Shown piece after piece: positions 9,302 to 54,429 of a stretch of 64,000 bases of DNA. Under the pieces are notes generated by a model, which was not told where the DNA came from, searched no databases, and saw nothing but the letters and a program-made list of their open reading frames with translations. Both the position numbers and the translations under genes were made by a program. The number at the start of each line of letters is the position of its first letter. The first letter of the stretch is position 1. This DNA is from Amphibalanus amphitrite (Eukaryota > Arthropoda > Thecostraca > Balanomorpha > Balanidae), in NCBI RefSeq assembly GCF_019059575.1, contig NW_024881599.1:930001-994000 (forward strand), written 5' to 3'.

Positions 9302-11029
9302 CCCTCGCCGGCTCCGGTCATTTTGCGTCCTTCGGTCCTTCGACGGTACAGGGGGGGGGGGGTCACGGTCTCTAGTCACGACCCCCCTCACGTTTGGTAC
9401 CTAATCGAGCTAGGGCTTCGAGGAATTTTACGGTCCTAGGTCATCGGTTGACCTGGAAAGTCGGGACCTGTTAGCACGTCGTGAAGTGTGGCTTCTTTGG
9501 GGGTTTTCGGGGTGGCGTGGCCAGTTTTATCAACAGAAATATAGCCGCCTGCCGGAATTTTTTGCCTAAAGACCGCTTCACTTACGGAGCGTAAACGCGA
9601 TGGGCACGTGAGCGGATAGGGCTTTACCGTTTACGCTCCGTAATCCGTACCTATGTGAAGCGGTCTTTAGGCAAACAATTCCGGCAGGGGGCTATTTTTC
9701 TGCTGGTAAAACTGGCCTCAGATCACGGATATCATGTTAGTTTTGATCACAGATGATGTCTTTATGCATTTAGGCCAGGTCGGGTCAGGTCAACCAGTAG
9801 GGGTCCTGCCGGGTATTCGCAGTACCATCAACCGCCTCTGACAGCTTCTTAACATGTTGCAAAGGCATCAAAACTACTTCGTAAGTATTCAAATGGTTGC
9901 TAAATTTGAGTTTAGCTCTAAAAACTAGCTTAGAAACATGTAAAACTCGAAAAAGTGAACCGAGGTCATCAAAGGTCAGTAACCTGACCTGACCTTCAAT
10001 TGACCTTGACATACATTCTAATGCATGGGAGCAACATCAAATCAAGATTCTTACAAATAAGGTTGGGACGCTAGTCACGTGATTCTTTTCCCTGCTTTTC
10101 CTAACCCTATTCACGAGTCACGATTTCCATAAGCCTTGGTTTATTCTTGAAACACTTTGCACAGAGGCGTTTGTAGTTAATTTATTTACAAAAACTATTT
10201 CATTGATATTTGAAATTAACAAACACATTTTTACTCGTAATCTCAAACAAAAGTTGAATTTATTCGCGTTTCATTAATTTAATCAGCGGGCAACCATCAC
10301 CCATCGTCCTCGATGTAGTCGAACTTGGCGCACTCGGATAGTGTTCGAAATTTGTGACGCTAAGTTGTTGCTACGGCGACCGGGCAGTACCTACGCTTTT
10401 CATTCGTCAACAAGTGCTTGCGGATCTGCCGCTCACACTTTCGAACACAGTCTTTATGCGTCAGTTTGCGTGACGCGCTATATCTGAAACATGTTTCGTG
10501 AGGCTCCAAAACCATTCAATTAATCTCCTTCAAAAGAAGTGTTTTGTAACATTTTCGTTAGTTTTTTTGGGCTTACTTGCTAGCTCCATTCATCCTATCT
10601 TGCGTTAGGATAGTCATCACTCGGGGACCAGTCGTTGCAAGCAAGAAACAACGACGAGGAGAGGGTCTTGTAAAAAGTCGCAGCTATTGCATTGAGCATT
10701 ACTTGACGAAAATATTTTTACCCCCACCACCTCAGGCGATCACGTGCCGTCACCCACCTGCATCAAATCACATGTTTGAACGCTTGAAACCACGAAAAGA
10801 CTGCAAACGCGCGGCTACTGCGAGCCGATATACGCCCAATCGCGATTCCGGCCAAACATGGTCTTGAAAAGTAGGTCAAAGGTCATTTGGGTCACGCACC
10901 GGAAATTTTTAGGATAGGTGTAAAATTGATCAACGCGAGGGTGCTGAAAGTTTCGTCGCGATCGGCCACTTTTTACGCGGGTTCTTTGCGAAAAACCTTA
11001 GGGGGTTGCATATACTGTGCCGGCGAGGG
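9302..11029 (+). mobile_element. E1 element, complete, with F inserted
   Basis: Starts CCCTCGCCGGC after TTAA (9298-9301) and ends GCCGGCGAGGG before TTAA (11030-11033): TTAA targeting with CCC termini, as in piggyBac-type transposons. Near the left end a G-run (from 9350) pairs with CCCCCC near 9383-9388. The right end has TTTGCGAAAAACC then GGGGG. The interior carries many AGGTCA half-sites, including a DR1-like AGGTCAAAGGTCA at about 10871-10883. Element F (10043-10760) interrupts it. No ORF is conserved between copies, so it is non-autonomous. Confidence 0.85.
10043..10760 (-). mobile_element. Element F copy 2 (718 bp, 8-bp TSD)
   Basis: Same termini as copy 1 (CAAGATTCTTAC to CACCCACCTG), inserted in E1 with a perfect duplication CATCAAAT (10035-10042, 10761-10768). 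The uninterrupted site is visible in the E1 copy near 39076-39090. The internal ORF remnant (LTNEKRRY region) is recognisable at about 10310-10500 on the minus strand. Confidence 0.9.
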
Positions 11030-11198
11030 TTAAAAAAATGTACTTGTAGCCACTTACCTCCTTAACTGGCTGTAACCTGTTGTGGGTGATTCTTTGGAGG
11101 AATTGGAACTTCTGGAGAGTCCATATCTCCCTCTCTCTGAAAGCCTGTTGTCCGGACCCGGACTTGGGCAGTTTGTCCAGGCGCGTGAAATTGTCTAA

Positions 11199-13029
11199 CA
11201 CGCGCACCGACGGGGGTCTGCGCCAACTTAGTACCGACGGGGGGGGGGGCGGATGACCGCCCCCCCCCCCCTGAGATCTCGAGAACGAAGCAAGATAGCG
11301 ACAAGCGGTAAACGGCATCGGATACGCACCAAGGCCCTATATAGAAGGTATGCTCATTAGGCCGAAGCAGCGATTTCCGTGACGTCACTGGTACGAAGGG
11401 TCGGACGGCTGTAATGCAATCCTATGGAAAATGACCCAACTTTAGGGCTCTCCCACATAGCTGCCAACCTCGACACTAAGGTAAAAGTTATATCACATAA
11501 AAGCTCAAATCAAGACGAACAAGAAACCTATCTGACGTTTTTACGTATTACTAACGGCTTAGGCTCTATTCAAGTATATTCAGAGCTCTGCATTACCTCA
11601 CTTTTTTTGCCGTCAATGCGACTACAAATGTCTAGTCGGCGCACGTGCGCTTGTCGAGCGGAGACCACCAGTCGGGCGATTCAGAGCTGCCGCCCAATCA
11701 GAACGCCGCAATGCCGTGACGTCATTGGTCGCACACGACACGTTACGGAGATAGGGATGAGACAGCCCTGGATACGCACGGACAAGGTCTACAATTTTTA
11801 CAAAGGTCATTTTCAGGTCAGGTCAAAGATGACGTCACAGGGGTCAAAAAAGTCAAAATGGCGGCGCTAGATATGGAGAGTTTTCTCGAATAACTTTCGA
11901 ACTAGTCAAGATAGGAACAAACTAAGGGCATCATCGTGATCCTATTGTCAATCCGCATCGAATGATATATGTTGACCTCGCAAGGTCAAGGTCAAAGGTT
12001 GACCTCAGGTCACGTGACCTCGAGGTCATCATGTATATCATTCGATGCGTCTTGACGAGCTGAACACCATGAGACCATCCGCGCGGCTGTATCTTGTTCC
12101 TGTACGGAGTTATTGGCAAAAAAACCTTTGGTGACCTTTGATGACGTCACATGTAGTGGTGTCAATCGGAACTTGAATCTTCGGAATTCCGATTTTGTCC
12201 AATGTCCAATTCGGAATTCGGTTGGACAATGACAGCAGGCTTTGGACAACTTTGGACAATCGCTTGCTACACCTCAACGTTTTTAAAAAGTAGTCGTGTT
12301 TAACATTGATTGGCTATTAGAAAGCTCAGCTTTCGATATGATTAACACTTTTGAGCTTGTAACGGTACATGAAAAGCAAATTAGCAAGTGTTGAGTGTAA
12401 ACTATTGCGTAGGTGTCGGACATCTTTGGACAAATGGCTGGCTTGGACATTTTTTGGACGGACAATCAACGTAAGCATTGGGCATTGGACGGACTTTGGA
12501 CATAAGTTTTCTGAAATTGACACCACTAGTCACATGACCTTACAGCTGCCCAACAGCAAAACAGATCTCAAGGTAGTGAAGGTTGATCGTATATGAAGTC
12601 ATGTATGGTATATGGGGTCATTCCGACCCGTTTTAGTGGTAAAAACAGGGAGTTGATTTTTCCCCTATTGACTTATAATGGGGAGGTCGAGAAATTGACC
12701 TGCCCTTAGGTCACCGATATCAAAATTCAGAGACATACAAATTGTAGCTACTAATGACCTTATAACATCATGCGACTTTGAAAGGCCTCCGACATCTACT
12801 GTAGCTCTGGCACGGTGACAAAGTTCCAAAAAAGTGACTTGAGGTTGGGTCATTCAAAGTGACCTGGTGACCTGACCTTAAAAGTTAGGAAGTTCAAACT
12901 TGCACACCATGTGTAAAATTGATGAGAGAATAGTCGTACCAAACTTCGGGCGCGTAGGTTTTCCCGCTATTTGCGAAAAACCCCAGGGGGGGGGGGCGGA
13001 TATCCGCCCCCCCCCCGTCGGTGCGCGTG
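11199..13029 (+). mobile_element. Element P, AGGTCA-rich hairpin element (1.8 kb)
   Basis: TIRs begin CACGCGCACCGACGGGGG at both ends. The right end abuts TTAA (13030-13033); the left flank is CTAA, a one-base decay. The left end repeats the terminal motif (ACCGACGGGGG again at about 11233) before a hairpin of 11 G, CGGATGACCG and 11 C. The right end has TTGCGAAAAACC, 11 G, the palindrome CGGATATCCG and 10 C (12986-13016). The interior has many AGGTCA, TGACCT and TGACGTCA sites and shares a core with element Q (11780-12700 versus 19080-19640). Non-coding. It is inserted in MADF copy 2. Confidence 0.85.
12154..12528. mobile_element. hAT MITE R (375 bp) inside element P
   Basis: TIRs TAGTGGTGTCAAT and ATTGACACCACTA, with a perfect 8-bp duplication GTCACATG (12146-12153, 12529-12536). 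The empty site can be read in element Q at about 19437-19450. The interior repeats TTGGACAA-type motifs. Non-coding. Confidence 0.9.
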
Positions 13030-13429
13030 TTAACATCCTTGAACAACCCTTGCAGTTGCGAGACTTCTTTCGGCATGCCTTCTGCCTGCTTCTTCCAAAC
13101 AACCTCCTTTAGGTCAAGTCTTCTGTAGTGCGTGGCTTTCTTATTCGACAGCATTTCGTTCACCTCCAAGAAGGCGACCATCAACTCCTCTTCCGCATCG
13201 GGCAGCTTATAGACCTTCTTTTGCTTTTTGTTCTTGACCATTGTCGGCGACTGAGATGCCTACGATGAAGTCTACTCTGACCGTGATTGCTTGTTGATGC
13301 TGTTTCCGACATTCAAAATCGAAACCTCAGTATAAAATGGCATGCGTCAAGCGATTTTTCTTTTTTTTGTATAAAATAGAAAGATGACGTGACAGGGTAC
13401 GGCACGGCGCACATTTTATAGGATAACAA

Positions 13430-13430
13430 A

Positions 13431-13468
<38 letters not shown>
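13430..13468. repeat. (TA)n microsatellite beside mariner copy 2
   Basis: A run of TA units abuts the TA target site of the mariner at 13475. The matching position in the left arm (6199-6207) has only a few units. Confidence 0.9.
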
Positions 13469-13472
<4 letters not shown>

Positions 13473-13594
13473 TAACGGGCGTCTACTAGTTTTTTTTTTG
13501 CACAAACTTCAGCACAATGAAACACATCTATTGCATTTCTCCTTCACCAAACTTTTCATGGTACTAGACCAATGCTTTTTCTGTCCGTCTGACA

Positions 13595-14358: not shown

Positions 14359-14704
14359 CAGAAGCTTTCTTGGAAATTTTTATTCAGGCCGAAATCTTAC
14401 GGCTCGAAGTTTTTCAAAATGTGATAAGAGGTTCTTTCGGCAACTCCAGCTATCTTCAGTACAAGCTGGCGTTAGGGTAGAGAGGCGAGGTTCTGGATAA
14501 ATTTTGCCACAAAACCGTGAACCTGTGTTTTCGTCAACGTCACCATGTTGAATGAACGTTACAGGTAAATGTAAGATGTATATAGTCTTGTGTACATAAT
14601 TGATGTTACTTCCTCCATGAATTTTTTTTTTAGAACTGAATGACACCTAGAGCCTGATTGAGTAGCATCCATACTTTGTGCAAAAAAATAATGGACACCC
14701 GTTA

Positions 14705-15747: not shown

Positions 15748-15751
15748 TTAA

Positions 15752-16589
15752 CCCTCGCCCCTAGTGGTGTTTTTCCAGCCGCGAACGTATAGAAGGGGTC
15801 CGTTGGCCCCCCCCCGTCGTTTCGCCCCTGATCGAGCTAGAGCTTCGCGGAAAAGACGAGCGTGTTGCCCGTGACAAGAGGAAGCTGATAATGCCCAATT
15901 GTAAGGTCCTAGGTCATCGGTTGACCTTCCAGGTCAGGTCAATGACCCAAAAGTCGGGAAAATTGGGACCTGTTAGAACGTCGTAAAAGGTGGCTGCTAT
16001 GGGTTTTTTGGGTGCTGATCACGAATATAATGTTATATACGATCATAGATGATGTCTTCATACATTTAGGCCAGGTCGGGTCAGGTCAGGTCAGGTCAAC
16101 CAGTAAGGGGTTTGCCGGGTATTTGCAGTAGGTGGCAACCGCCTCTGACAGCTTTGTAACATGTTACGAAGGCACCAAAGCTACATAGTAAATGTTCAAA
16201 TGGTTGCTAGATTCGAATTCAGCTCCAAAAACTAGCCTGGAAACATGTTAAACTCGAAAAAGTGAACCAAGGTCATCAAAGGTCAATGACCTTACCTGAC
16301 CTTCTGGTGACCTTGACACCCACCCTAATGCATGGGAGCAACATAATATCCCATGTTTGAACGCTTTAAACCAAGAAAAGACTGCAAACCCGCGGCTAAT
16401 GTGAGCCGACATACGCTGAATTGCGATTCCGGCCAAACATGGTCTCGAAAGAAGGTCACAGGTCAAAGATCATTTAAGTCAGGGTCATGAAATTTTCAGG
16501 TTAGCTGTAAAAGTAGTTATCGCGAGGGTACTGAAAGTTTCGTTGCGATCGGCCGCTTTTTACGCGAATTTCTCGCGAAAAACCAAGGG
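15752..16589 (+). mobile_element. E1 element, right end truncated
   Basis: Starts CCCTCGCCCCT after TTAA (15748-15751), with a hairpin GGGGTCCGTTGGCCCC near 15796-15813, and follows the E1 interior to the GCGAAAAACC motif at about 16573-16583. It then stops abruptly without hairpin or TIR where Harbinger-related sequence begins. It contains a tandem AGGTCAGGTCAGGTCA at about 16082-16098. Confidence 0.8.
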
Positions 16590-16618
16590 TTCCGTTCGAA
16601 GATTCAGGCCCTGTCGCG

Positions 16619-17000: not shown

Positions 17001-17476
17001 TCTTTGCGCCGGTATAAACAGAACAGAAATAGAATCGACCTCAGTGCTGTATTGGGGTACAACAGCTTCGTCACCAACAGGTTGAGAGGTAGTCACCGTA
17101 TCATTTAACGACCAGGCACAGTACTGATAAGGCACACATCAAGTACAGCTCATTGCTTCCTCTCGTACATTCAAGGAGGGGCTTACGGACAGACCCTCTA
17201 AATTCGCCGTGAAACGTGTACTGTAACGACAGGCACGATTACATTATGCTTGTATCAGGTAAAGGGTGCATTAATGATACATCGTGAACGGTATCAAAGA
17301 CACACGTCTGATCTGTATCATATACTGTCCCGTCAGGATTTGGGTGCCAAAGAGGGTTAGGCGTTAATTTTGTCCGAGCGAAACTCAGGAAAGGACCGCC
17401 AAGTCCGTTTCCTACACTCGGCGGCCACAAGCGCTACAGCCAGGAGAGCCGTGCAGTGCCACTCCAGAGGCTAGCG
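17001..17476. other. Remnant Harbinger-flanking sequence, no gene
   Basis: The first few tens of bases continue the Harbinger frame upstream (RILNTPFRQNQMGQG, minus strand, to about 17000-17030). Beyond that the sequence has no recognisable coding motif up to the perfect palindrome at 17477. Confidence 0.35.
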
Positions 17477-17550
17477 CTGCCGTCCAAAGGCAAAAACGCA
17501 TATGTCGGGTCATATGACCCGACATATGCGTTTTTGCCTTTGGACGGCAG
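17477..17550. repeat. Perfect 74-bp palindrome
   Basis: Two 37-bp arms (each starting CTGCCGTCCAAAGGCAAAAA from its outer end) are exact reverse complements with no spacer; the centre is TCATATGA. It would form a spacerless hairpin or cruciform. It is followed to about 17767 by GC-rich sequence with no assigned role. It may be a minimal foldback MITE or a rearrangement junction. Confidence 0.95.
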
Positions 17551-18500
17551 AGCGCGCATTGAGACCGACCAGGTCCAGACGAATGCCGAGTCACGAGTGG
17601 CTACGAGAGAGACGGACAGACTGGAGGTCACCGCGGGTCACGTGACATTCGAGCGACCGCCAATTACCGCGCGCCAGAGCACTGCGCCGGCCGCGCGCCC
17701 GCAAACATACTGTGCCGCAAACATACGCGGCCGGGCGGCTACACACACGCGGCGAACAGTTGCGATATCCCGCGCCCCGCTGGGCTATTCAGCCATACGC
17801 GCCCTGCTGGGGGTTGGGGGCAGATTCTGCCCCACCTGTCTAACTTCCGCGGATCTTAAGATCCCAATTTTTTTGCTTAAGTAGGTCAGAGATCAGGTCA
17901 AGGGTACAAAATGCAAGTTTCTACAGTATCGGCCTTGCACCGTAGTTGCCGAAGAATGGACTGAGACTGATTGCCCAAAACGTGTTCTTAGACTACCAAG
18001 ACAATATTCGTTGCATACAATGTCATTCAAAGGTCAGGTAAGGTCAGGTCAGGTCACCAAAAACAAAATATAGAAAAGGTCATGTGCCACACATGTTTCA
18101 TGGGTCATTTTACTCATAGAATTCAAAAAGCACACTCAATAAGTGATATGGACCACCTCTGGATGAATTTCAGGTCGAGGTCAGGTCAAGGTCAGGTCAA
18201 GCGAGGTCAAATTTTGAAGTTGGTTGTTAAGGCCTAAAAAGGTATCTATCTGATGCAGTTTTTTCACGGCGAATCGAATGGTGCTATTTTTGTTTCCGTA
18301 CGAGGACTAGAACTTCCAAAAAAAAAACATTTATAAAAATGTTTGTGTGTCGTGACGTCATAAAATTTTGAATAACTCCCACATTTCTGAACAGATTCTT
18401 CTAAAAATTGGTATGTAGGTGCACATAGACCACTTCTCTGACATATATTCCGGTTTTTTCGATACTCAAAATTTTGGATTTTATAATGATTTTCCCTAAA

Positions 18501-18976
18501 GAGGCATTCCACGATAGATCGACCAGAAAATCTTAAAATTTACACCCGCATATTTTATTTTTTGCTTAAAATTGGTCTAATGGGTTGTGATGGGCGGGGA
18601 ACCCAGCTGTGGCAAGGATTTTTTTCTTCGAACAACGGTCTCCGAGATATAGCCTCGGGCAGTTCCTGGAGATCACGCTGCAACCCTATGTTTGGCGGCT
18701 TATAACTCAGAAACTATTGGTTTTCTATGGTAAAAACTTCATATGGTTCAACTCGCAATCAACCAACAAACGTTTTGGCTATCTCGGATTTTCGATTTTT
18801 GAAAATTTTGATCACGTGACATCTTGACCTTTTTTTCGAAGAGTGACCTTGACATTTTCCCAACTGAAAGTCGCAATTTTGTCTGATGACGATTAAAGCC
18901 TTATCAATTGTCATTCATATGCGATAATAAAAAAGTGGCTTTCGGCCTGCGTTGACCTCAGGTCAGGTCATTTTTA
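18501..18976 (+). repeat. Internal inverted-repeat arm of Q, left
   Basis: Aligns over its whole length with the reverse complement of 19915-20385. Shared landmarks are GGCATTCCACGATAGATCGA at the outer end and GGCTTTCGGCCTG near the inner end. The arms enclose the P-like core. Confidence 0.9.
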
Positions 18977-19914
18977 TGGCCTTCCCATTATTACGAGCGG
19001 GAGCGACAGCGAGATCTCGAGAACAAAGCAAGATAGCGACAAGCGGTAAACGGCACAGGTTACACATGGATAAGGTCTACAATTTTTACTCAGGTCATAT
19101 TCAGGTCAGGTCAAAGGTGACGTCACAGGGGTAAAAAGAAAGTCTAAATGGTGGCACTACATATATATGAAGTTTTCTCGAATAACTTTCGAAGTATCCC
19201 AACTAGGAACAAACTAATAGCACCATCGTGATCCTCTCGTCGATCCGCATCGAAACATGTGCATGTTGACCTCGAAAGGTCAAGGTCAAAAGTTGACCTT
19301 AGGTCACGTGACCTTAAGGTCATCATATATATCATTCGATGGGCCTTGACGAGCTGAACACAATGAGCCTATCTGCGCGGCTGTATCTCAAACCTGTAAG
19401 GAGTTATTAGCAAAAAACATTTGGTGACCTTTAATGACGTCACATGACCCAAGAGCAACGTCACAGTTGATCAAGAGCAATAAAGGTCTCAAGGTAGCCA
19501 AAGTTAGTCGCATATGGAGTCACTCATGGTATATTAGGCAATTCCGACGCGTTTTAGTGTAATAATAAGGGAGCTGATTTTTCCCCAATTGACTTATAAT
19601 GGAGTGGTCAAGAAATTGACCTGACCTCAGGTCATCGGTATCGAAATTCAAAACGAACTGGCGCTAGGCGAAAGCAAACGGATTGGTGCCTATTCTACGT
19701 CTCTTTGTTAGATCAAAAGGTACAGCCAAAAACGGAAAATTATTGTGTGTTCAACGCGTGACCTCGGATGACCTTTCTTTCAGCGGGTCACTGATACAAA
19801 GCTGCACCAAAGCCATCAATAATAGCCTAACTCAACATGATTCAAAAGTATTTGAACCGGTCAGATGCGTTTCGGTGATAGCCGATATTTCTGCCACTGA
19901 CTTATAAAGGACAG

Positions 19915-20385
19915 GTAAAAAAATGACCTGATCCCAGGTCATTGCAGGCCGAAAGCCACTTTTTTATTGTCGCATATGAATGACAATCGATAAGGCTTTA
20001 ATCGTCATCAGACAAAATTGCGACTTTCAGTTGGGAAAATATCAGGGTCACTCTTCGAAAAAAAAAGATCAAGATGTCACGTGATCAAAATTTTCAAAAA
20101 TAGAAAATCCGAGATAGCCAAAACGTTTGCTGGTTGATTGCGAGTTGAACCATATAACGTTTTTACCATAGAAAACCAATAGTTTCTGAGTTATAAGCCG
20201 CCAAACATAGGGTTGCAGCGTGACCTCCAGGAATTGCCTGAGGCTATATCTCGGAAACCGTTGTTCGAAGAAAAAAATCCTTGGCACAGCTGGCTTCCCC
20301 GCCCATAACAACCCTAAGACCAATTTTAAGCAAAAAATAAAATATGAGGGTGTACGGCTTTGGTCGATCTATCGTGGAATGCCCC
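19915..20385 (-). repeat. Internal inverted-repeat arm of Q, right
   Basis: Reverse-complement partner of 18501-18976, with scattered substitutions and small indels. Together with its partner and the enclosed 940 bp it could fold into a very large stem. Confidence 0.9.
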
Positions 20386-20786
20386 AAAAGTCAGTTTTTT
20401 TGAAGAAAAAAAATGGGCCAAAATCCAAAATTTTCAAAAAACCGAGATAGCCATTTGATAGACAAAGTAGAATCACGTATAACCTTTTTTTGTTACGTCT
20501 TGATTCCTTTAAAAATGAAGATGTTAGCGGCATTTGAAATTTTGGCGTTTTGGAGGCGAAAATGGCGAACATGACGTCACTAACACGTCAAGCTCTCAAA
20601 AAATTCCGACGGATTTCGCTGAAATTTTCAGGGAACGTGTCAAATTGATGTATGATAAGGTACTAAAAGTTTGACGTCGCTGGCGTAACGCGTTTAGAAG
20701 TTATTGGCGAAAAACGGGAGGGGGCAGATTCTGCCCCCCCCCCAGCGGGGCGCGGGACATGAATAATGAATGCGAAAACATGAAAC

Positions 20787-21366: not shown

Positions 21367-21694
21367 TAAGGACGCGGCCGGCCTCGTGCGTGTTGAGGAT
21401 GTCGTGTCGGAGCTAATTAAGTGATTTTTCTGCGGAACATGGTTTCTCAGCTAGCTCAGAAGATATCTATGGTATAAATGAGAATGGCAAGAATCGTTAG
21501 ACACAGGTTAAGTATTTGAGATTGTATACTTCGTCGTGAAAATCGTTGTTTTCATACCCACGTGGGCGACCTAACGTCCATCGCGAAATTGGTAATTTTC
21601 CGATCGTTGTCATCTCTTACATATATTTCATGAGTATAGTTTTGATAAATATTCATCTGCCGATTAAATTAAACCTGTAACTTTCACAAATATT
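21367..21694. other. No supported gene
   Basis: AT-leaning sequence between the Harbinger relic and the gypsy element. No motif, repeat or frame supports a feature. Confidence 0.4.
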
Positions 21695-21698
21695 AAAT

Positions 21699-21855
21699 GG
21701 ACCTCAGTCATTTGCTTCGGATTGTATTTGACAGCAATGACCAACACATCTGAAAGCACAAGGAAGGAAGCATCAGGACAGAGGTGTACCTAGCTGGGAG
21801 TGATGCAGGCAAGGATAAAACAGTTACAAACGATACATGGGTACCACAGTCCTCT
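21699..21855 (-). repeat. 3' LTR (157 bp)
   Basis: Downstream LTR in element orientation. Its outer flank is AAAT. It is unusually short for gypsy elements, and no TATA box or polyadenylation signal is obvious. Confidence 0.85.
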
Positions 21856-21866
21856 ATCCCCCCTCG
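21856..21866 (-). promoter_or_regulatory. Polypurine tract
   Basis: On the minus strand CGAGGGGGGAT directly precedes the 3' LTR, the expected place for the plus-strand DNA primer of an LTR retrotransposon. Confidence 0.65.
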
Positions 21867-21982
21867 AGACTTTAGGTACCGTATGGTGCCAAAGTCTGAA
21901 GACAAATGGGCGAACGCAAAGAACTCTGTTGACAAGGAAATAGAACGACATCGTAAGTCGTAACGCACAACCGAAGGACACG

Positions 21983-24900
21983 TCACTCGCAAACATAGTC
22001 ATCGAGGTACTGCGGTCGGTGGCGTTCCCGGACGCCATGACGAGTACATCGCGGGAGAGCAGGGGGCGAAGCGGCGGGTTCCCTCTCGTGCTCGACCGGA
22101 GCAGGAGGACACGCGCGCGCGCTCTTCCCGGGCGAGCGGTTGGGTGTCGCGGATGGGGCGAAGTGGTGGGAAGGTGACGCGCTGCTTGGCTGGCTGGCCG
22201 GTCCAGGTGCAGGCTCACGGGGGATGAGAGAGCGGGGAGACGAGGCCATGTCGCTGTGAGGCGGCGTGGGTGGACTGGGGCGGTTGGCGAGTGTGCGCGA
22301 ACAGTCGCCGGCGCTGTGGGGCAGTGGCAATCCGCACGATGGATCCTGCGTGTCCCTCTTCACAGAACTCTCGTCTCGGGACTGCGTCCGTGGGATCTGT
22401 GGTAGTCTCACCTCTCGTGCCAGTGGCGGGCGAGGAATGAACGGGGTGTAGGAGCGTAGATGCTTGCGGTTGCGGATGGTAACACGTCCAGATCCGTCAA
22501 CCTTCACCACGTACTGGTCAAACTGACGTACTTCGATAACGATCCCCGTCTTGTCCCACTTCATGGGGTGCGGACCTATGAGGTTTTGAAGGCGCACTGT
22601 GTCACCGACGACGAGTGGGGGCAACATCCGAGTGTGTTCGGAGAGCCGCTCGTGCGTCCTCATGTGACGGTTGCGAAGTGCCTCTTCGCGGTGGGCGAGG
22701 GTCTCCCGCCATGTGCTGTGGGGCTGGTATTTTCCGGGATGGATTGGGATAAAATCCCTGATCGGCCGTCCGAAGATAACTTGGGCGGGCGACATGCGAG
22801 TGTCGCGGTCCGGCGTGTTGCGGTATTGTAGTACGGCACGCTGAAAACGATCTGTGTCCAGACTACCATCTGGCAGTGAACTGTCTGATATCAGTCGCTT
22901 GACGGTTTTGACTGCTATCTCCGCTCGACTGTTACTGTGGGGAAATCCTACAGAGGATAGGCGATGCCGTACTCCCCAATCACGGAGGAACTGCTGAGTG
23001 GCAGTTGCTGTGAACTCCGGGCCACCGTCGGATGATAGCTCGTCACTGATGCCAAACGTGACAAAGATGCGCCGCAGTGCAGCGATGAGGCCCTTGGAGC
23101 CGTCCGCAGACTCCTCCACGATAGGCCAGTTACTGTAACGGTCCACAGCCACCAGATAGTGGTGGCCGTTGTGAGAAAAGTAGTCGGCACAGATAGCTTG
23201 GAATGGGTACGCTGGGAGGAGCGGAGGCGTGGGTGGGGACGATGGCTGAGACGGGGCGTTGCGGTTACATGCCTCGCACCGTGAACGCGTGTTCCCAATA
23301 GCCATAGACATGCCAGGCCAAAAGAACGAGCTCCCGGCCCGTGCATCCATCATTGTCACTCCTTGATGGGCGGCGTGAAGTGCTTGAAGAGTGCGATCAC
23401 GTAGGGAAGTCGGTATAACGACCCTGTCGTCGTAGAGGAGCACGCCATCGTAGTCGCTCAGTTTCTCTCGGTATCGATAGTAAGGGCGAACAGCCGGCGG
23501 CATCTCAGCTGCGGTGGCTGGAAAACCGTCGTGGATGAAGTCGGATAGGGTTCTCATATCTGGATCGCTGGCAGTGGCGGCCCGTACGTCATCCCATGTG
23601 ATAGACCGTATAAGTTCGAGTGTGGATGAAGCGCACAGGATAGAGCACTGCTCATCATCAGTGTCGTTCACGTGACACCGAGAGTCCGGGAGGATCTCGC
23701 AGATGGGAGCCGGGCGTGCGCCCGGAAGACCGGCAGAGATCGTGGATGCAGCTACGTCATCGGGTAGGTCTGGAGGCTCCGCAGCACCGACTGGGTGCCG
23801 GGACAGGGCGTCGGCTGCGGTGTTGCGCACTCCAGGGATGTGGACGACGCTGAATCGGAAACGGAGGCTCTTTTCTTTTAGATTGCGCAGTCGGGGGTTG
23901 GGAATGTCTTCCAGGGAACGGTCCCCTAGGATCTTCAGAAGGGGCCGGTGGTCGACGGCGACGATGAGATCGGAGCAGCCCAGGGTGAAGTGACGGGCCT
24001 TGTTCAGGGCGTCGACAACAGCTAGGGCTTCACCCTCCACTGGTGCGTAGCGGGCCTCAGCACCGTGGGTGAAGCGGCTACCCACCAGTACCACACGCCA
24101 TCCGAGGCGGCAGCAGAAGGGACGGCGTCCGCTGCAGCCACAGTGTTTTTGGAACAGCCAGTATCCGATGCCGTCTTTTGACCAGTCGGTCACAAGGCAG
24201 GTGGGGAGTGATGTGTCAAAGATTTCCACGCCAGTTTCGATCTGTTTCAGGATCTCCGTCTTTGATCGGCGGAAGATTTCGTCGATCTCTGCAGTCCAAC
24301 TGAATGGACGGCCGGGTTTCAGGAGGTCTCGGTATGGCTTCATGTAGTCGGCTGATGCGAAAGCGTACGCTACCTGGTTGATGAGACCGAACCAGCTGCG
24401 GACATCCGTTAGGTTGCGCGGAGTGGGGAACGCCTCGATGGCTTGCAGCATCTTTGGACATGGTCGGACGGTCGTCGGTGTGATCTCGAAGCCTGCGAAG
24501 TTGACGACGTCTTGAGCGAAGCAGAACTTCGATGGATTCTGGACGATACCGTGACGGCCACATGTGTCGAGCCACTGTACGGTCTGGTGGAAGGCTTCCT
24601 CCACGCTCGAAGCCCAGAGGAGTGTGTCGTCCACGCATTTCGTTTTGTTAGGTATGTCCGCAACGATGGCGTCGAACCGTCTCGTGTAGCCATCGCCCGA
24701 CGCTACATAACCCTGTGGAGCCACACGGTATCGGTACCGACCCCAGGGTGTGATGAAGGTCGTCAGGTGTCTATCGTCCGGATGGAGTGGAACGGCGTGA
24801 TATCCGTTCCAGGCGTCGCATACGGTCTTCTTGGTTCCACGAGGTACGGCACGAGCTTGTTGAAAGGGGGATTGGGTGTGATGAGTCTCTCGTGTTGCGT

Positions 24901-25603
24901 GGGCGTTGAGGTCCTGGAGGTCGACGGTACGGCGGGGCTTGCCGTTTTTCTTCGGGCTGATGACCATTCGATGGCACCAGGTGACTGGCGTGCTCGGCGG
25001 TACCTCTTCGATGACGCCAAGCCTGCAGTCCTGGTCGAGACCAGCCTTCACGTCGTCTTGCCAGTGTATTGGTACCGGTATGGGTTTGTGATGCGCAACT
25101 GGCTGCGCATCTGGGTCCACCATCAATCGAAGTGGTGGGCCCTCCATGGTGGGGAGGGGCTGGTGGCTGCACACATTGAAGGTGCTTGAGGAGTAGTACC
25201 TGAGAAGCCAGTCCTCGATCTTCTCCCTGTTTTCGTCCGTTGGAGGATACGGTGGGGCTTGTGGGAGAGGTGGCGGTAGCTGGCGTCGAGGGCAGTCACA
25301 TGCCGCGGTCAAGCAGGATTCCGACGAGGTGGAATCACATGATGCGGCTGTAGTTCCTGACTTCACATCGTCGGGGAGCCCCGTCCGCGGGAAGTCGGCT
25401 CCGATGACGCCCAGCGCTTCGCATGCTCCTCTGGACAGGAAGAACTTGTCCGTTGCGTCCGTGAAGTATACCATCTGCCTGGTCTCCACGGCGCCTGGTT
25501 CCCGCGTGTCAGATATCCGCATGGCCAGCGCGCCTCGGATAGTGATGGGGGCGTTGTTGGCGGCAGTCATCTGCAGCTTGACGGGGGTGAAAGCATCATA
25601 CAT
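21983..25603 (-). CDS. pol: Gypsy-type pol polyprotein (partial protease, RT, RNase H, integrase)
   Basis: 1206 codons without a stop. Residues 1-75 resemble only the C-terminal half of a retropepsin-like protease; the D-T/S-G active site is absent. Reverse transcriptase spans about 165-345, with the first catalytic Asp at 263 (VCDAWNGYHAV) and CVDD at 323-326. RNase H follows with Asp473, Glu524, Asp551 and Asp598. Integrase has an HHCC zinc site (His743, His746, Cys776, Cys779) and a DD35E core (Asp807, Asp859, Glu895). A proline- and arginine-rich tail follows. All RT, RNase H and integrase catalytic residues seem intact. It is a retrotransposon protein and not a host gene. Confidence 0.95.
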   Translation of the reverse strand: MYDAFTPVKLQMTAANNAPITIRGALAMRISDTREPGAVETRQMVYFTDATDKFFLSRGACEALGVIGADFPRTGLPDDVKSGTTAASCDSTSSESCLTAACDCPRRQLPPPLPQAPPYPPTDENREKIEDWLLRYYSSSTFNVCSHQPLPTMEGPPLRLMVDPDAQPVAHHKPIPVPIHWQDDVKAGLDQDCRLGVIEEVPPSTPVTWCHRMVISPKKNGKPRRTVDLQDLNAHATRETHHTQSPFQQARAVPRGTKKTVCDAWNGYHAVPLHPDDRHLTTFITPWGRYRYRVAPQGYVASGDGYTRRFDAIVADIPNKTKCVDDTLLWASSVEEAFHQTVQWLDTCGRHGIVQNPSKFCFAQDVVNFAGFEITPTTVRPCPKMLQAIEAFPTPRNLTDVRSWFGLINQVAYAFASADYMKPYRDLLKPGRPFSWTAEIDEIFRRSKTEILKQIETGVEIFDTSLPTCLVTDWSKDGIGYWLFQKHCGCSGRRPFCCRLGWRVVLVGSRFTHGAEARYAPVEGEALAVVDALNKARHFTLGCSDLIVAVDHRPLLKILGDRSLEDIPNPRLRNLKEKSLRFRFSVVHIPGVRNTAADALSRHPVGAAEPPDLPDDVAASTISAGLPGARPAPICEILPDSRCHVNDTDDEQCSILCASSTLELIRSITWDDVRAATASDPDMRTLSDFIHDGFPATAAEMPPAVRPYYRYREKLSDYDGVLLYDDRVVIPTSLRDRTLQALHAAHQGVTMMDARAGSSFFWPGMSMAIGNTRSRCEACNRNAPSQPSSPPTPPLLPAYPFQAICADYFSHNGHHYLVAVDRYSNWPIVEESADGSKGLIAALRRIFVTFGISDELSSDGGPEFTATATQQFLRDWGVRHRLSSVGFPHSNSRAEIAVKTVKRLISDSSLPDGSLDTDRFQRAVLQYRNTPDRDTRMSPAQVIFGRPIRDFIPIHPGKYQPHSTWRETLAHREEALRNRHMRTHERLSEHTRMLPPLVVGDTVRLQNLIGPHPMKWDKTGIVIEVRQFDQYVVKVDGSGRVTIRNRKHLRSYTPFIPRPPLAREVRLPQIPRTQSRDESSVKRDTQDPSCGLPLPHSAGDCSRTLANRPSPPTPPHSDMASSPRSLIPREPAPGPASQPSSASPSHHFAPSATPNRSPGKSARACPPAPVEHEREPAASPPALPRCTRHGVRERHRPQYLDDYVCE

Positions 25604-25606
25604 ACT

Positions 25607-25619
25607 ATGTGTTGGTCAT
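25607..25619 (-). promoter_or_regulatory. Candidate primer-binding site, complementary to own LTR
   Basis: In element orientation ATGACCAACACAT lies 4 nt after the 5' LTR. It is an exact 13-nt complement of LTR positions 25662-25674. I do not recognise a tRNA 3' end here. The arrangement resembles self-priming as described for Tf1-like elements, in which the 5' end of the RNA pairs with the primer-binding site. Inferred. Confidence 0.45.
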
Positions 25620-25623
25620 AAAT

Positions 25624-25780
25624 AGACCTCAGTCATTTGCTTCGGATTGTATTTGACAGCAATGACCAACACATCTGAAAGCACAAGGAAGGAAGCATCA
25701 GGACAGAGGTGTACCTAGCTGGGAGTGATGCAGGCAAGGATAAAACAGTTACAAACGATACATGGGTACCACAGTCCTCT
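25624..25780 (-). repeat. 5' LTR (157 bp)
   Basis: Upstream LTR in element orientation, matching 21699-21855 except at the first base. It contains the 13-nt segment complementary to the candidate primer-binding site, about 40 nt before its end. Confidence 0.85.
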
Positions 25781-25804
25781 AAATATACTTGCATAAAGTA
25801 TAAA

Positions 25805-26979
25805 CCCACGCCGGGCCGGTACATGGTACCAACCGCGCCGGGCCGAGGGTGTATGAAACCCCCGCCCCCTCCCCCTAACTCGGCTTCTGGGCCACGTAGC
25901 CACACGGGGTAAGCGGCATTCCAAAGAGCGTAAGAAATAATGGCGGATATACATGGTCATTTTTTAGGTCAGGTCAAAGGTCAAGTCACCATAGGTCATT
26001 AAAGGCAAATTTTGTCTATTTCAACAATTTTCGAAACGCCCGACGCATAACTTGGGAACCAACAGAACTACAGCGCCGCGGAAAAGTGCATTCGATAGCT
26101 CTTTTACAGGTCTTACCGAGTTGTATACGTCGATTTGACCTCAGGTCAACCGTTTAGCCTCCAGAGGGCAAAAACTAAAAAAAATAGCCGTGTTTAGGAA
26201 AAACGTTTTTTTCGGTAATAACTTTTGACTCAAAAGAGCCATGACATTACTTTTGCCAGCATCGTGTTCCTCTCGTCAAGACGCTTCGAATGAACTATAA
26301 TTTGACCTTGAAAGGTCAACTTGAAAACTTAACCTCAGGTCAAGGTCATGACCTGACCGGAAAATGTTGCATATCAGTCGATCCGCAACGTCGAGCCGAA
26401 CACATCTGAGGCGTTTTCAGCGCTCTAGCACGCCTCTATCAGAAGTTTTTAGCGAAAAACTGTTAGATTCTGTTCGTGACCTGAGATGACCTCGGGGACG
26501 TAACGAGGGGTTACAGTTGCCATTTTCCGGTTCAGTGTGTCAATTTTACCTACATTTCGATTTTTGAGAGTGTCTAGAATAGCGTTCGTGCAAAACAGAC
26601 GCTTTTCAATTTTCTCCCATTGACTTTCATATACCTAATGGAGAGAACGCAAAATTGACCTGACCTTAGGTCACCGATATCAAAATGCCGAGATATACAT
26701 TTTGTAGATAATGCTGCTCTTATCAATCGCTGAAAGTTTCAAGGCAATCGATCATTCGGTGTAGCTATGACGAGCATTCTTATTTTTTCTGAGGTAAGGT
26801 CACTTGGCGTGACCTGGTGACCTGACCTAAGGCGACCTGGGTCTGAAATTTTCACAACATGTGCGGAAAAGATGCACGAACAGGTATGCCAAAAACGGCG
26901 GCGCTCCGCGACGCCGTTTTTGAGATATCTGCGAAAAAACGCAGGGGGGGTGTTCAAACACCCCCCGGCCCGGCGCGGG
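25805..26979 (+). mobile_element. Element N copy 2, AGGTCA-rich hairpin element (1.2 kb)
   Basis: Left end CCCACGCCGGGCCGG preceded by TAAA; right end CCGGCCCGGCGCGGG followed by TTAA (26980-26983). The left end repeats the terminal motif (CCGCGCCGGGCCGAGGG) before a weak C/G stem. The right end has TCTGCGAAAAAACGC, then GGGGGG-TGTT-CA-AACA-CCCCCC (26945-26966). A second stem-loop (AAAAACGGCG with CGCCGTTTTT) lies at 26891-26921. There are many AGGTCA sites, including AGGTCAGGTCAAAGGTCA at about 25966. Non-coding. Confidence 0.85.
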
Positions 26980-26983
26980 TTAA

Positions 26984-28026: not shown

Positions 28027-28030
28027 TTAA

Positions 28031-36864: not shown

Positions 36865-36865
36865 G

Positions 36866-38442: not shown

Positions 38443-38446
38443 TTAA

Positions 38447-39376
38447 CCCTCGCCGGCACAGGCCATTTTGCGTCCTTGGACGGCACAAGGGGGGGGGGAC
38501 GCAAGGGGACGATCCCCCCTCGCATTTGGTACGATCCCCCCTCGCATTTGGCCCCTGATCGAGCTAGAGCTTCGCGGAAAAAACGAGCGTGTTGCCCGTA
38601 ACGAGAGAAAGCCGATGATATCCAATTTTAAGGTCCTAGGTCATCGGGTGACCTTCCAGGTCAGGTCAATGACCCGAAAATCGGGAAAATCGGGACCTGT
38701 TACTTGTGAGAAAGTCGTAAAGTGTGGCTGCCATGGGGTTTTCCGGGGTGCTGATAACGAATATCGTGTTAGTTTTGATCAGAGATGATGTCTTTAAGCA
38801 TTTAAACCAGGTCGGGTCAGGTCAGGTCAGGTCAACCGGTAGGGGTCGTGACGGGTATTCGTAGTACGTGTCAACCACTTCTGCAGCTTCGTAACATGTT
38901 ACGAATGCACCAAAACTACTTCTTAAATGTTCAAGTGGTTGCTAAATTCGAAATCAGCTCTAAAAACTAGCCTAGAAATATGTAAAACTCGAAAAAGTGA
39001 ACCGAGGTCACCAAAGGTCAATGACCTGACTTGACCTTCAGGTGACCTTGACATCCACCCTAATGCATGGGAGCAACATCAAATCACATGTTTGAACGTT
39101 TGAAACCACGAAAAGCTTGCAAACGCGCGGCTAATGCGAGCCGACATACGCCGAATCGCGATTCCGGCCAAAACATGGTCTCGGAAAGTAGGTCATAGGT
39201 CAAAGGCCATTTGGGTCAGGGTCATGAAAATTTTCAGGGTGGGTGTAAAATTGATCAATGCGAGGGTAATGAAAGTTTCGTCGCGATCGGCCGCTTTTTA
39301 CGCGAGTTATTCGCGAAAAACCTTAGGGGGGTTGCATCAACCGGCGACTTTCAACTTAACCCTGTACCGGCGAGGG
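38447..39376 (+). mobile_element. E1 element, complete and uninterrupted (930 bp)
   Basis: The best reference copy. TTAA lies on both sides (38443-38446, 39377-39380). Starts CCCTCGCCGGCAC and ends TACCGGCGAGGG. The left end holds a G-run (38491-38499) that can pair with CCCCCC at 38513-38518 or 38527-38532. The right end has TTCGCGAAAAACC, GGGGGG and a GGTTGCATCAACC palindrome. AGGTCAGGTCAGGTCAGGTC is at about 38816. No frame is conserved among copies, so it is non-autonomous. Confidence 0.85.
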
Positions 39377-39623
39377 TTAAGTTGAAAATATTAATTTGGT
39401 TCAAAATGATGATGTAGATAACCTAGTTATTTAAAGCTAAATATCTTATGACGAGAGCGGTTGGCATTTTTGGTATGCAGTGTTATTCATTGAAAACCGG
39501 TCGGAGCGTTTGAGTCTTTAATTTAGTGATCGCCGCTTACTAATCATGCGGCATACACGCCTCACATAACCGCCAATGCCGCAACGCAGCTTAGATTTCG
39601 AAGTAAGCATTTAGTCTCACCCC

Positions 39624-44273: not shown

Positions 44274-44329
44274 GTACCAACTAACTTCGGCGAGGGTCGG
44301 CGCTCACCACCGGTGGTGAGTCCGACCCC

Positions 44330-49495: not shown

Positions 49496-49504
49496 CTCGT
49501 ACCG

Positions 49505-50290: not shown

Positions 50291-50561
50291 ACAATCCCTT
50301 AGTCTCGCTGAGTTGCTATCCCAATCCCATACCGGCTTCTATCCCAATTCCGGCTCAACTAATTAGCAGCCCCCCCCCCCCTCATGGGTCAGCGGCGCCG
50401 CGCCGGTGTCGGTGCCGGGGGCCAGCGCCATCGGGGCGGCAGTCGGCCACGCGCGCTCAATGGTTAGCGCTTAGCACCGGCGGCTAGCGCACGCCCGGCG
50501 TGTTATCGGCCGTGAGCCGCTCCAAAACGGCTGCAGTAACTGGTCGATATAGGCAGTAAGC
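50291..50561. other. GC-rich sequence, no gene
   Basis: A C-run (50371-50381) and GC-rich sequence without recognisable features. Confidence 0.35.
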
Positions 50562-50910
50562 AGATGAGGAGGTGCAGGTGGATTGATGACCGGCAAGCCT
50601 TTGTGCTTTACGAGGGCGAAGGGTCGAAGTCGGCTGCTAAGCCGTGAGCGGGTTTTATCAGATGCCGGTTCACTATGACCTTTATCCGGGTCCTGGTACC
50701 CTGACGCACTCTTGGATAGCCGAATTACAGCAAAACTCCATCCACGACTGTATCTATACGGCTTACGCTTTTCTGAAAACTTCTGCGTTTGGCCTTCCAC
50801 GGGCCCGGCCGGCCGGCCGGCCCCGATTGGCAGTCCACCAGTGACGTCACTAGTAGTGTTAAGCTGATTGGCGAAGAATACAATGGGATAACCGGGACGA
50901 CATCCCCCTG
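50562..50910 (+). repeat. Dispersed repeat, copy 2 (349 bp)
   Basis: Same-orientation match to 636-980, with scattered substitutions and one extra GGCC unit. Confidence 0.75.
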
Positions 50911-51210
50911 GGTGGTGATCAGTGAGAGCAGACCGTATGGGGGGGGGGGGGCATAATTTCGTTCCTTCGTGAGTCCATGGGGCTGGTCTCGTAGACGTTG
51001 GCGCCCTCTGTAGAATCTGAAAGCTGCCAGAGCCCAGATGCATTTGTGGAGGCTGGTAACGGGATGACGCTTAATTCGTGTTGAATACCTACATGATTTT
51101 TTTATCCGATGCTGTCGGTGAAACACTTGAGACACTTATTCCAACCGGATTATTTGAACAGCTACTTTCCTAACTGGCACAAGAATGGGGACATTGTTAA
51201 AACTACTTTT

Positions 51211-52022
51211 GGGTCATTCCACGTCAAATCGATCACGAATGTACCCGACCCCCTTCGATTTGGATGAAATTTGGTAGGCTCTTAGCACCTGTGAAAACAA
51301 ATACATCCTACAAGTTTTAGACCTGGGTGACCTCTAGGGTCAAAGTTATAGGTCATGAAAGGTCAACGATTTTTGCCGACATTGCAGGTTTGAAATGCCC
51401 ATTGCTCTGTAATTAAGAGTGCGGGGAAGCTGCGATAAGCCCCATTAGAGAGGCAATTGATCCAGGTTCTATAAATAATTTTGTATTCGTCGATGACATT
51501 TCAACGACCTTTGACCTGACTAGGTCAAACTGAGTGTTTTTTCACCATGTTCTGTACCTCGGGTGCTGACGAAAATTTAGCAGAGGATGTATCATAGTAT
51601 CGACAATAAGTGGCGTAAAACATATTTTTAGGGAAATTGTTGTTTCAAAAGAAATAAATCATTATGTAAAGTTATGCGCCGTATACGAAATTTGCCCTGA
51701 GGCGATTTGACGAATCGCGGCTAGTTTCGTGCTTCTTGTTAGCCCGATTGGGTTAAAACTTGGTATGCGGAATACCCTGTTGGTATGCAGCACATCAGTG
51801 TATTAAAAAATGTTTGACGTTATAGGTCAAAGGTCAGAAATCATCACCAATTTACGTCATACCATCTAAATTTTCTGCATACGAGATTTATCCAGTGTCT
51901 ATCGAAAGGAAATTCATCTGATGTTGTTGGTCCATAAAACTGATGAAATACTACCATCCGTCTATCGGGACTACTTGAATTTCACCTGAGGTCATTCTAT
52001 ATATATATATTTTTTTTAATTT
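51211..52022 (+). repeat. Element K, left arm
   Basis: Starts GGGTCATTCCACGTCAAATC and aligns with the reverse complement of 59213-60505 (minus the M insertion). Landmarks: TTTGGATGAAATTTGGTAGG, GAGTGCGGGGAAGCTGCG and CGAATCGCGGCTAGTTTC. It also carries AGGTCA motifs. The arm ends at the TTAA where element J begins. The region 50911-51210 before it has no supported feature apart from a G-run at 50939-50950. Confidence 0.8.
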
Positions 52023-54429
52023 TTAACCCTCCCCGGCCGAGGGGGGGGGGCGGATGCCGCCCCCCATAGGTTTTTCACGATAGCTCCGAACACGCCGGCG
52101 ATAGAGAGCTGACACTTGGCATACCTGACCTTTGATTCAAGCCGGATCTTTTGAAACCAACCGCATTTTCGGGTCAGGTCAAGTCACTGACCTATGACGT
52201 CATAAGTGAACCTCTGCACGGTAGAGTTCTGCACGGCTGCAATTTTCCACAGCCTAGCCGCCCCGCAGCCGTGGCTCCACAGCCACAGCCGCCCACAGCC
52301 GTGGCAAACTGTGGGCAGCCAGCCGTCAGCCGGCCGTGGATACTTTCAATGAAATGCAACCAAATAGTATATAATAAGTTGTTTTTAGTTGAAACATATA
52401 GCCAAAAGCACATTGCAATGGGCTATAGATTCTCAAGCTCATGAAGCATCATAGGTTAAGTGGTTGTGTATCTGGCTTTAGGCCAAAGGCCTGAAGCCTG
52501 ATGCGCAACGCATGCCTACACAAGCCCTTGCAAGGGGGGTAGGTACCTACATCAACAGAAAACAAACAACGAACCAGAATAGAAGCACTAGCAGTGTAGA
52601 TATCTAATGCCAAATCCTGAAGCATGGTTGTGGGACAGAACAACAGACCCTGATGCTTTTCATTATCAATGTTAGGTATGGAAAATGAAACTGAAGTTGA
52701 TGGACTGTCAAACAGTGATTGTCTAGTCAAAACTCTTGCTTCTTTCTTACCTTGCATATTTTCTGGGGTGTGATATGCCAGGCTTGAAGCAGCCTTCTGA
52801 GCAAGTCTCAAACTAATTTGATATGCAAGGCATCAAAACACTAGTGAGCATCCAAGAAAGAAAAACATTAATCTATTTTGATTTTTCCAAATAATGATGG
52901 CTCTCTCTATCGTCTGGACGTTTTGAAAGATGCTCTCCAGAGATGGCGCTAGTAAGTTTGGCTGCCATGACGTCATGCTTAAAAGTGATGGGTTTTGTGA
53001 GAGCAAATGTAATAATAGTTTAAAATTTGGTACCTTTGCTTTATTCAGAAAAAGCAATATTCAATTATTCAAAGAAACGTTTTCCTCATTCATCCTTCAT
53101 TGTTTTAAGAGGAATATAGACAGTTTTAATATTTTTTCTTGACCTCAATTCGCACACGCACTAAATTAAAAGCTGGAGTTTTGTGCGTTCGTAAATTGTG
53201 ATTTAAGAAAATAATTTGACAATAATCTTTTACACTTTTGCTTTACAATCATTTTTCAATGCACATAAATGCATGAATGATTCGAGAATAGGCATATCTT
53301 TGAAGTATTATGATTTTCCACAAGCAACTTTTTCCAGAAACTTGAACTACTCACAGCTGACGAACGCATCCAATAATCTGGATGTCTTAGGATGAGTTCG
53401 TCATTTTTTTCTTAAGGAAATACGATACAGTTTTAGCTACTTTACCTATTTATTAGGGTACTTTTGCCAATGAATTATCAAATCAATGACAACAATTAAT
53501 CTCATTATCAACCATACTCGAAAGAATTTTCTTCGTATAAGCGCGAACACATCCGCGCTTTCATGAAAAGTAACGCCTGTAGATGTCAGGACTGCTGCTT
53601 TATGTTTCGCAAGGTGGCGCAGCGCGCAGGGTAGCGAGGCTGAGGTCTCCAGACTCTCCACCACGATTTAGCTTGGAAATGGCATGGGGAAGGTCTCATC
53701 CAAAAAAAAACGGACGCCCCTTTACACAGCTGCATAACAAGAATGAATTATTGGCATAGCTGACCATACGTCACCTCCCCCTTGCCGCCCCAACTCAGAA
53801 TATCGCCTATTTTCCTTAGTGGCAGTTATATTCTGACTAATTTCTCACTCTTCCCAGTAAACCTTAACATGCATGATGCAGATGTCCACTGCGTAAGTCG
53901 TGTGCTTGCGTAAGTGTGCCAACTAGTGCTGCCTACAGTGCCTATAGTGCCTACTGCTTCCACCATTGTCGTTATAATTGGTGGTTCTCAGGTCAAAAGC
54001 TACACAGTGGTCTCAGAGAACAATCGTTTCAACAAATTCACGATTCAAACCGTTGCATTCTACTTATATTCCGGTCAGTTCTGCTACTAAACGATTCCGG
54101 CAAAACACTATTTAGGTTATGTATTAGCGAACCACCACACAAAATTCGCCCAATCAATGGTCAGTTATTACTGCTGGGGTCAATATTTTTAAAACGATAC
54201 CGACTGACGAAACACAACATATTCGCAGATTCGCACATACGTTGGCACCCAGGTGGCCTGTCAGCAGCCGCACAAATTGAGATGGTACACCGTAAAGCAT
54301 GCCTTTCCACACAGGCACAAGCACAGACACACAAAATTCTCAAAATCCAAACTTATTCCAATACTGGTCAAATACTAATAGGCATAAAGTTTTGAGGTTT
54401 TCTCATGTTCATTCTTCTTTCAACACACG

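Follow-up and report, generated by a model that had tools for sequence, protein, structure and literature searches.

What kind of mobile element keeps a palindrome at its ends while the palindromic core differs from family to family? This question is raised by a 64,000-nucleotide stretch of the Amphibalanus amphitrite genome (assembly GCF_019059575.1, contig NW_024881599.1, positions 930,001 to 994,000; hereafter the window), where a preliminary description placed five element right ends, at 39311-39376, 12971-13029, 26930-26979, 20706-20757 and, reversed, 52027-52083. All five are present there, and four of them abut TTAA, the exception being the end of family Q. Each end had been described as a motif, a G-run, a palindromic core, a C-run and a terminal inverted repeat (TIR), and selection was thought to act on a hairpin. 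Based on the window and the whole 807-Mb genome (2,644 contigs), we conclude, with a probability of about 0.8, that the window families are non-autonomous transposons of the piggyBac superfamily, moved by piggyBac transposases encoded elsewhere, and that their palindromes are probably bound as duplex DNA by pairs of transposase cysteine-rich domains (CRDs). These elements, about 0.9-1.2 kb in size when uninterrupted, are ordinary in kind; unusual are the G- and C-run arms, the many symmetric cores and a three-copy set of recognition sequences that has changed jointly in at least one family pair.

Architecture of the ends and insertion at TTAA

The terminal plan common to several families is found both in the window and genome-wide, where the pattern GCGAAAAAC-N0-8-GGGGG has 9,579 forward-strand matches, compared with 8 for the reversed-pattern control. 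The reverse-strand count, 29,421 (control 4), repeats end points per site and was not added; if both strands are equal, the motif ends would total roughly 19,000. Short element copies in the genome number in the thousands. A motif scan of the viral_contigs collection, the only one scanned besides this genome, gave two records, neither with the end plan.

The loci sampled are the surroundings of motif matches listed for contig C1. The less selected count comes from 65 distinct motif ends (loci L005-L062) chosen on the motif alone: 55 of them have a G-run, 7-13 bp and a C-run, 50 have at least two of three outer core pairs complementary, and in 50 the G-run, core and C-run are followed by TTAA within 24 bp. 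A second set of 64 ends holds only those matching a G4/core/C4/TTAA expression and is biased to intact ends; the commonest sampled family in it (28/64), N2, is absent from the window and has the core TGTTTGAACA, as read from the tip, and the TIR CCCGCGCCCTGCT. From this TTAA-selected set come 39 TTAA-flanked TIR pairs, 38 of which were parsed (L031+, in which two right ends had been paired, was omitted).

A palindrome is present at both ends in 36 of the 38 parsed pairs, the other two being without a parsed left palindrome, and in one of the ends, the long end, it is set about 27 bp deeper. Counted from the tip, its tip-side edge comes after 13 bp (28/36) or 14 bp (8/36) in the short end and after 39-43 bp (40 bp in 29/36) in the long end. 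The plan, which had been noted at right ends, does hold there, but it is not confined to them: left palindromes are present in P (11237-11272) and Q (17816-17833) and, in decayed form, behind the left tip of N, which is at 25805. Between the long-end TIR and the palindrome, a second copy of TIR bp 7-13 was found in all of 15 hand-picked family representatives, at an offset of 27 (10/15), 26 (3/15) or 28 (2/15). This internal copy is identical to TIR bp 7-13 of its own family at 4-7 of 7 bases (mean 5.8), compared with a mean of 3.5 of 7 in 210 cross-family comparisons.

The TIRs of the window families had been called unrelated, which is contradicted by TIR bp 1-6: these agree at 5 or 6 of 6 positions among eight family representatives, and the divergence sits in bp 7-13. 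The TIRs start with CC[C/T], and off-consensus tips are few (CAC in window P and in L017); window P (CAC..) and Q deviate from the respective consensus sequences CCCGCGCACCGAC and CCCGCGCCCCGCT. Some tens of bases inward of the long-end palindrome, in L076 and in the long-end interiors of families M and E1, we also observed GCGGAAAAAAC, which resembles the motif GCGAAAAAC beside the short-end palindrome. A further protein site may exist at both ends, as judged from this resemblance.

TTAA target duplications are seen in the 39 TTAA-flanked pairs, and TTAA is reached at 50 of the 65 motif ends. For 44 elements, the two flanks were joined and searched for in the sampled loci; 19 of these joined sequences have some match across the junction. 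Among the matches listed, at least five of the 44 are gapless over 160 bases with a single TTAA, at 94-99% identity (L031-, L038, L040, L055 and L008, with L038 and L040 matching the same repeat), so that empty sites are available for a few copies. It is also observed that elements of different families abut with one TTAA common to both (L035 2464-4365, L027 and L039). Because neighbouring elements have one TTAA between them, insertion may favour or reuse existing element tips as targets. Helitrons are not known to have TIRs or a target duplication, and they possess a 3' hairpin and a CTRR end. The TIRs and TTAA at both ends argue against a Helitron identity for the present elements.

The asymmetry of the ends (one end longer by about 28 bp, a duplicated TIR half and the same palindrome, in the 36 elements and the 15 representatives) is of the T. 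ni piggyBac type. According to the accessible part of PMC7351741, the left and right ends (LE and RE) of that transposon are LE35 and RE63, a 17-bp insertion and a duplication distinguish the latter, RE bp 34-63 being almost identical to LE bp 7-35, and a palindromic 19-bp repeat is bound by a dimer of the transposase CRD. The present elements are similar in the TTAA, the palindromic repeat at both ends and the lengthening of one end by insertion and duplication; they differ in having a 9-10 bp core between G- and C-runs, runs that vary among copies, and many family cores. In the consulted text on piggyBat of Myotis lucifugus (PMC11707139), a repeated TIR-half motif and an imperfect palindrome are bound by paired CRDs, and the palindrome is unrelated in sequence to that of piggyBac. 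Unlike the elements here, piggyBat has three motif-palindrome units on LE with no corresponding RE palindrome, and no G/C-run arms are described in that text. As reported in PMC13405395, an engineered two-protein system accepts linked piggyBac CRDs, together with the piggyBac palindrome on an end, in place of the native pair. Within open-licence literature, represented largely by titles and the beginnings of abstracts, no description of piggyBac ends with G/C-run palindromes was found.

By analogy, the short end would correspond to the piggyBac left end, with the TIR and then a palindromic site 13-14 bp in, and the long end to the right end, with the TIR, a spacer, the second copy of TIR bp 7-13 and the palindrome about 40 bp in. 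Two transposase dimers would be involved, one at the tips and an inner one at the duplicated TIR half, while each palindrome would be held as duplex DNA by a symmetric CRD pair. A change of CRD specificity would then lead to symmetric core changes, because both half-sites face the same protein, and the three copies of TIR bp 7-13 would change together, because this segment would be read three times per element.

Symmetry of the cores and length of the runs

The palindrome is composed of a G-run, a core of usually 9-10 bp and a C-run. Sixteen cores, one per family, were picked by hand from short ends, or from long ends for families A, Z and K; since related families (M with T, P with J) are among them, they are not independent. 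N, L049 and L008, whose cores are the same as those of N2 or R, were left out, as were the J-like long end in L068 and L071, a second family Y copy with 1/3 pairs as parsed. Ends with lost or rearranged cores (e.g., L006, L013, L047 and L052) were counted in the 65-end set and not among the sixteen.

Complementarity holds for 40 of the 48 outer pairs in the sixteen cores, whereas shuffled cores have 13.3 complementary pairs on average and 29 at the maximum, and none of 20,000 shuffles reached 40. When the 5' half of one family is combined with the 3' half of another, 247 of 720 pairs (34%) are complementary. The complementary types vary among families: C-G and T-A occur at core position 1, C-G, G-C, A-T and T-A at position 2, and G-C, T-A and A-T at position 3. 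Therefore, the core changes that distinguish families are compensatory. Copies of one family have nearly the same core, and deviants among them are symmetry breaks or indels (e.g., L034 and L035); no compensatory core change was found within families among the ends of the 65-end set. Such deviants are expected of inert copies whether the palindrome is a dimer site or a hairpin. The proposal that each core stays palindromic thus stands across families, with the palindrome being lost in the E1 copies at 10988 and 8557, and the proposed check by compensatory changes is borne out between families but not within them.

Could such symmetry be a functionless by-product of GC-rich, slippage-prone ends? 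The run lengths vary widely, from 5 to 17 among the 36 elements, and some copies persist after core loss, as would suit this explanation. However, core symmetry far exceeds that of shuffles and of cross-family pairing, the cores are alike at both ends of one element and different between families, and the tip-side edge of the palindrome is nearly fixed, which makes a by-product hardly credible.

The run lengths also bear on whether the ends fold. Matched stem arms would give a positive correlation between G- and C-run lengths; rho is -0.18 at the long end (P 0.29) and -0.47 at the short end (P 0.0035) in the 36 elements, and the lack of a positive correlation counts against a hairpin. Two adjoining copies in L043 share their flank and differ in C-run length (11 and 9). 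The length variation is read as slippage after insertion; homopolymer assembly error is also possible.

A single-stranded or cruciform end hairpin needed for movement, as in Helitron- or foldback-like elements, could keep the cores symmetric as well; the stems are long, GC-rich and at the right place, and the symmetry is kept across families. Nevertheless, we regard this explanation as improbable, since TIRs and TTAA mark the two ends of the elements, an empty site with a single TTAA is available for some copies, the duplicated TIR half and the palindrome at an offset of 26-28 bp are arranged as in piggyBac, and G- and C-run lengths do not rise together. In addition, an A/T-rich palindrome occupies the same place in the autonomous piggyBac locus L064, where its centre is at bp 24. 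The TTAA tip that precedes the L066 frame also has one, provided that this tip is part of that element. Consequently, of the earlier suggestion, the part that the core is kept in symmetry and not in sequence is retained, while the hairpin as the selected thing is not: the offset of about 27 bp and the second TIR bp 7-13 match the duplex CRD-dimer site of piggyBac, as far as the available text of PMC7351741 describes it. The known piggyBac ends suggest that the palindrome most likely serves as a CRD site of two-fold symmetry and not as a folded hairpin.

Recognition sets and candidate transposases

In at least one family pair, M and E1, the recognition sequences have changed jointly. M and E1 have interiors that are 94-95% identical over 761-783 aligned bases (four copies by two), and their TIR bp 1-6 are identical; in TIR bp 7-13, they have 2/7 bases in common at the left end and 2-3/7 at the right end. 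At the interior identity, the left-end deficit of matches has a chance of about 1e-5, with sites taken as independent. A weak trend in the same direction exists between T and either M or E1 (3-5 of 7; P 0.006-0.05), while other family pairs are without it; for example, N2 and Q agree at 6/7, with interiors 73-78% identical. For A and U, the spacer is common at 17/19 positions, the TIR at 3/7 and the internal copy at 2/7, a mosaic that is not accounted for by a single end swap. Two routes are possible: the copies may have co-evolved step by step, with gene conversion between them, or end modules may have been swapped repeatedly at the C-runs.

A precedent for conserved interiors with differing TIRs is provided by the coral CMITEs, which, according to the accessible text of PMC2872659, are non-autonomous TTAA elements of about 100 bp in Acropora, linked to piggyBac, forming tandem arrays and estimated at about 1,600 copies in A. 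millepora. Like the elements here, CMITEs have interiors more conserved than TIRs between families; subterminal palindromes and a concerted three-copy TIR change are not mentioned in that text. More tentatively, and with some doubt, one conserved backbone might have repeatedly switched the whole recognition set (TIR halves, internal copy and palindromes) to follow different piggyBac transposases, with the G/C runs as joints for end-module exchange by template switching or gene conversion. If so, the genome would be a natural library of matched CRD/palindrome specificities.

The transposase domain PF13843 (DDE_Tnp_1_7) has 116 matches genome-wide, many without stops and some being fragments. 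We viewed 25 transposase loci, of which 9 were complete and 16 comprised 551 bp on the C-side. Other tips are seen in 10 of them (beginning with CCCATTAG in 7), 2 (C527 and C1173) have a G-run palindrome judged their own, and 13 have no assignable tip. The C527 locus contains a PF13843 frame of 674 aa without stops, and its C-side end reads TTAA, CCCTCGCACGACCAGG, a spacer, CGACCAGG, a G-run, TTGTTACGA and C8. The C-side flank of C1173 is the same as that of C527 at 540/545 positions, palindrome included. Over roughly 125-230 bp, the C527 end has an identity of about 62-69% with long ends from families E1, M, T, Q and P, with the best match (E 5e-25) to an E1 long end in L047, a weaker one to Q (1.5e-9) and the weakest to P (8e-5); it also matches the window at 15748-15962 and 38526-38669. 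The exact C527 long end occurs 1,654 times in the genome (785 + 869; control 0), compared with 116 PF13843 matches of all kinds; therefore, most copies must be without a transposase. A tblastn search with six piggyBac proteins against L001-L068 and the window matched the six transposase loci and no coding remnants in the elements. We infer that the C527 transposase or its kin moves the window families. C527, with one such end, is a candidate for the autonomous partner sought for the shared ends; for the CCCGCGCC families, no partner was found among the loci viewed.

Other loci were rejected as partners. The G-run palindromes of L071 and L079 were attributed to adjacent elements because of their orientation, and L063 is itself a piggyBac that lies within a G-run-palindrome element. 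The L063 piggyBac (613-4431), with a 604-aa frame and the TIR CCCATTAGTGCCC, lies inside a non-coding family R element (core CCATTTTGG), and 11 PF13843 matches have the same 604-aa frame length and a near-equal score. The L064 protein matches solved piggyBat (1.4e-23) and piggyBac (8.2e-10), and a zf-Tnp_2 match was given by one of six transposases scanned, that of L064, at 23.5 bits, below the cut-off of 24.

Duplication of TTAA is common to the Kolobok and Sola3 groups too. An origin of these elements in one of them, with likeness to piggyBac by convergence, would agree with this duplication and with the failure to find a transposase with CCCGCGCC tips, the search having been made with the PF13843 model. 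The PF13843 locus with the same long-end plan, homologous to the long ends of E1, M and T and more weakly to those of Q and P, and the piggyBac-like end asymmetry are against such an origin, which we hold to be very unlikely.

Several observations weigh against the assignment to piggyBac with CRD-bound palindromes. The core of family K has 0/3 complementary pairs and the uncounted second family Y copy 1/3, and 10 of the 65 motif ends fail to parse as G-run, core and C-run. The centre of the short-end palindrome shifts between 24 and 33 bp from the tip with run length, unlike a rigid spacing. C527 is seen from its C-side tip only, and the C1173 sequence stops short of the TTAA tip. Genome-wide exact patterns for a short end with the C527 TIR gave 0 matches in the forms searched; a search with three mismatches gave 365 sites, and another family, CCCTCGCCCGACGA, accounts for 12 of the 13 listed with letters. 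Among the 25 transposase loci (16 viewed as 551 bp on the C-side), none was found to have the tips of the CCCGCGCC families (N, N2, P and Q). Moreover, binding of the palindromes by CRDs is proposed by analogy, and the protein contacts are likewise putative.

Because core variants, matching TIR halves and stop-free transposase frames co-occur, the CRD DNA code might be readable from sequence. piggyBac is a main genome-engineering tool, and the cited literature, in the parts available, details its palindrome for two lineages only; this genome offers about sixteen natural core variants with matching TIR halves and many stop-free transposase frames. M/E1 is a clear case of joint change in the recognition sites against an element background that is about 95% identical, and it makes testable how non-autonomous elements follow or switch their transposase.

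Elements in the window

The elements and their parts are listed below (RE-like, long end; LE-like, short end).

6527..6682, - strand: P empty site with a single TTAA, matching the joined P flanks at 96% over 156 aligned positions with one gap
9302..11029, + strand: family E1 element, with another repeat inserted at 10045-10760 and a decayed short-end core
11199..13029, + strand: family P element, 1831 bp, with a 3' target-site duplication TTAA at 13030-13033 and a 5' relic ..CTAA ending at 11198
11237..11272, + strand: P palindrome at the long (RE-like) end, G11-CGGATGACCG-C12, preceded by an internal TIR copy CCGAC
12985..13018, + strand: P short-end (LE-like) palindrome, G11-CGGATATCCG-C10
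15418..15480, + strand: long end of a second family N copy, TIR CCCGCGCCGGACC, core TGTTGATTGAACA
15752..16584, + strand: element resembling family T, with its long-end tip at 15752 and the core TCCGTTGG; the right boundary is given by a repeat match only
17768..20757, + strand: family Q pair of ends, tips 2990 bp apart, flanks without TTAA in the window copy
17816..17833, + strand: Q long-end palindrome, GGGGG-CAGATTCTG-CCCC
20716..20742, + strand: Q short-end palindrome, core CAGATTCTG
25805..26979, + strand: family N element, 3' TTAA at 26980-26983, 5' flank TAAA, left palindrome decayed
26945..26966, + strand: N short-end palindrome, core TGTTCAAACA
38447..39376, + strand: family E1 element with TTAA on both sides (38443-38446, 39377-39380) and a short end altered by a fold-back of flanking DNA
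52027..52083, - strand: family J short end, tip at 52027, TTAA at 52023-52026, palindrome at 52042-52065, motif GTGAAAAAC

The P empty site reads ..TTGTCTTTAACACC... Because this site has TTTAA and the left flank of P has TAA, the left target duplicate of P seems to have lost two bases. For Q, TTAA is present at the ends in L001, L029, L042 and L051. The element at 15752 belongs to family T, distinct from the five families named in the window. At the E1 short end (39326-39342), the C-run is reduced to CC and followed by the fold-back of the flank. At this right end, TTTCAACTTAACCCT (39349-39363) returns inverted as AGGGTTAAGTTGAAA (39373-39387), spanning tip and flank, as if flanking DNA had been copied into the element by fold-back.

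The window also contains repeat nests and Ty3-like and non-LTR (long terminal repeat) reverse transcriptase frames, named by eye from their translations. Just left of the Q element, an 80-bp near-perfect palindrome with 40-bp arms and no loop is located at 17474-17553. At 21694-25781, a Ty3-like frame (21983-25603, - strand) lies between 163-bp repeats; this insertion is probably recent, because the flanking repeats are 99.4% identical.

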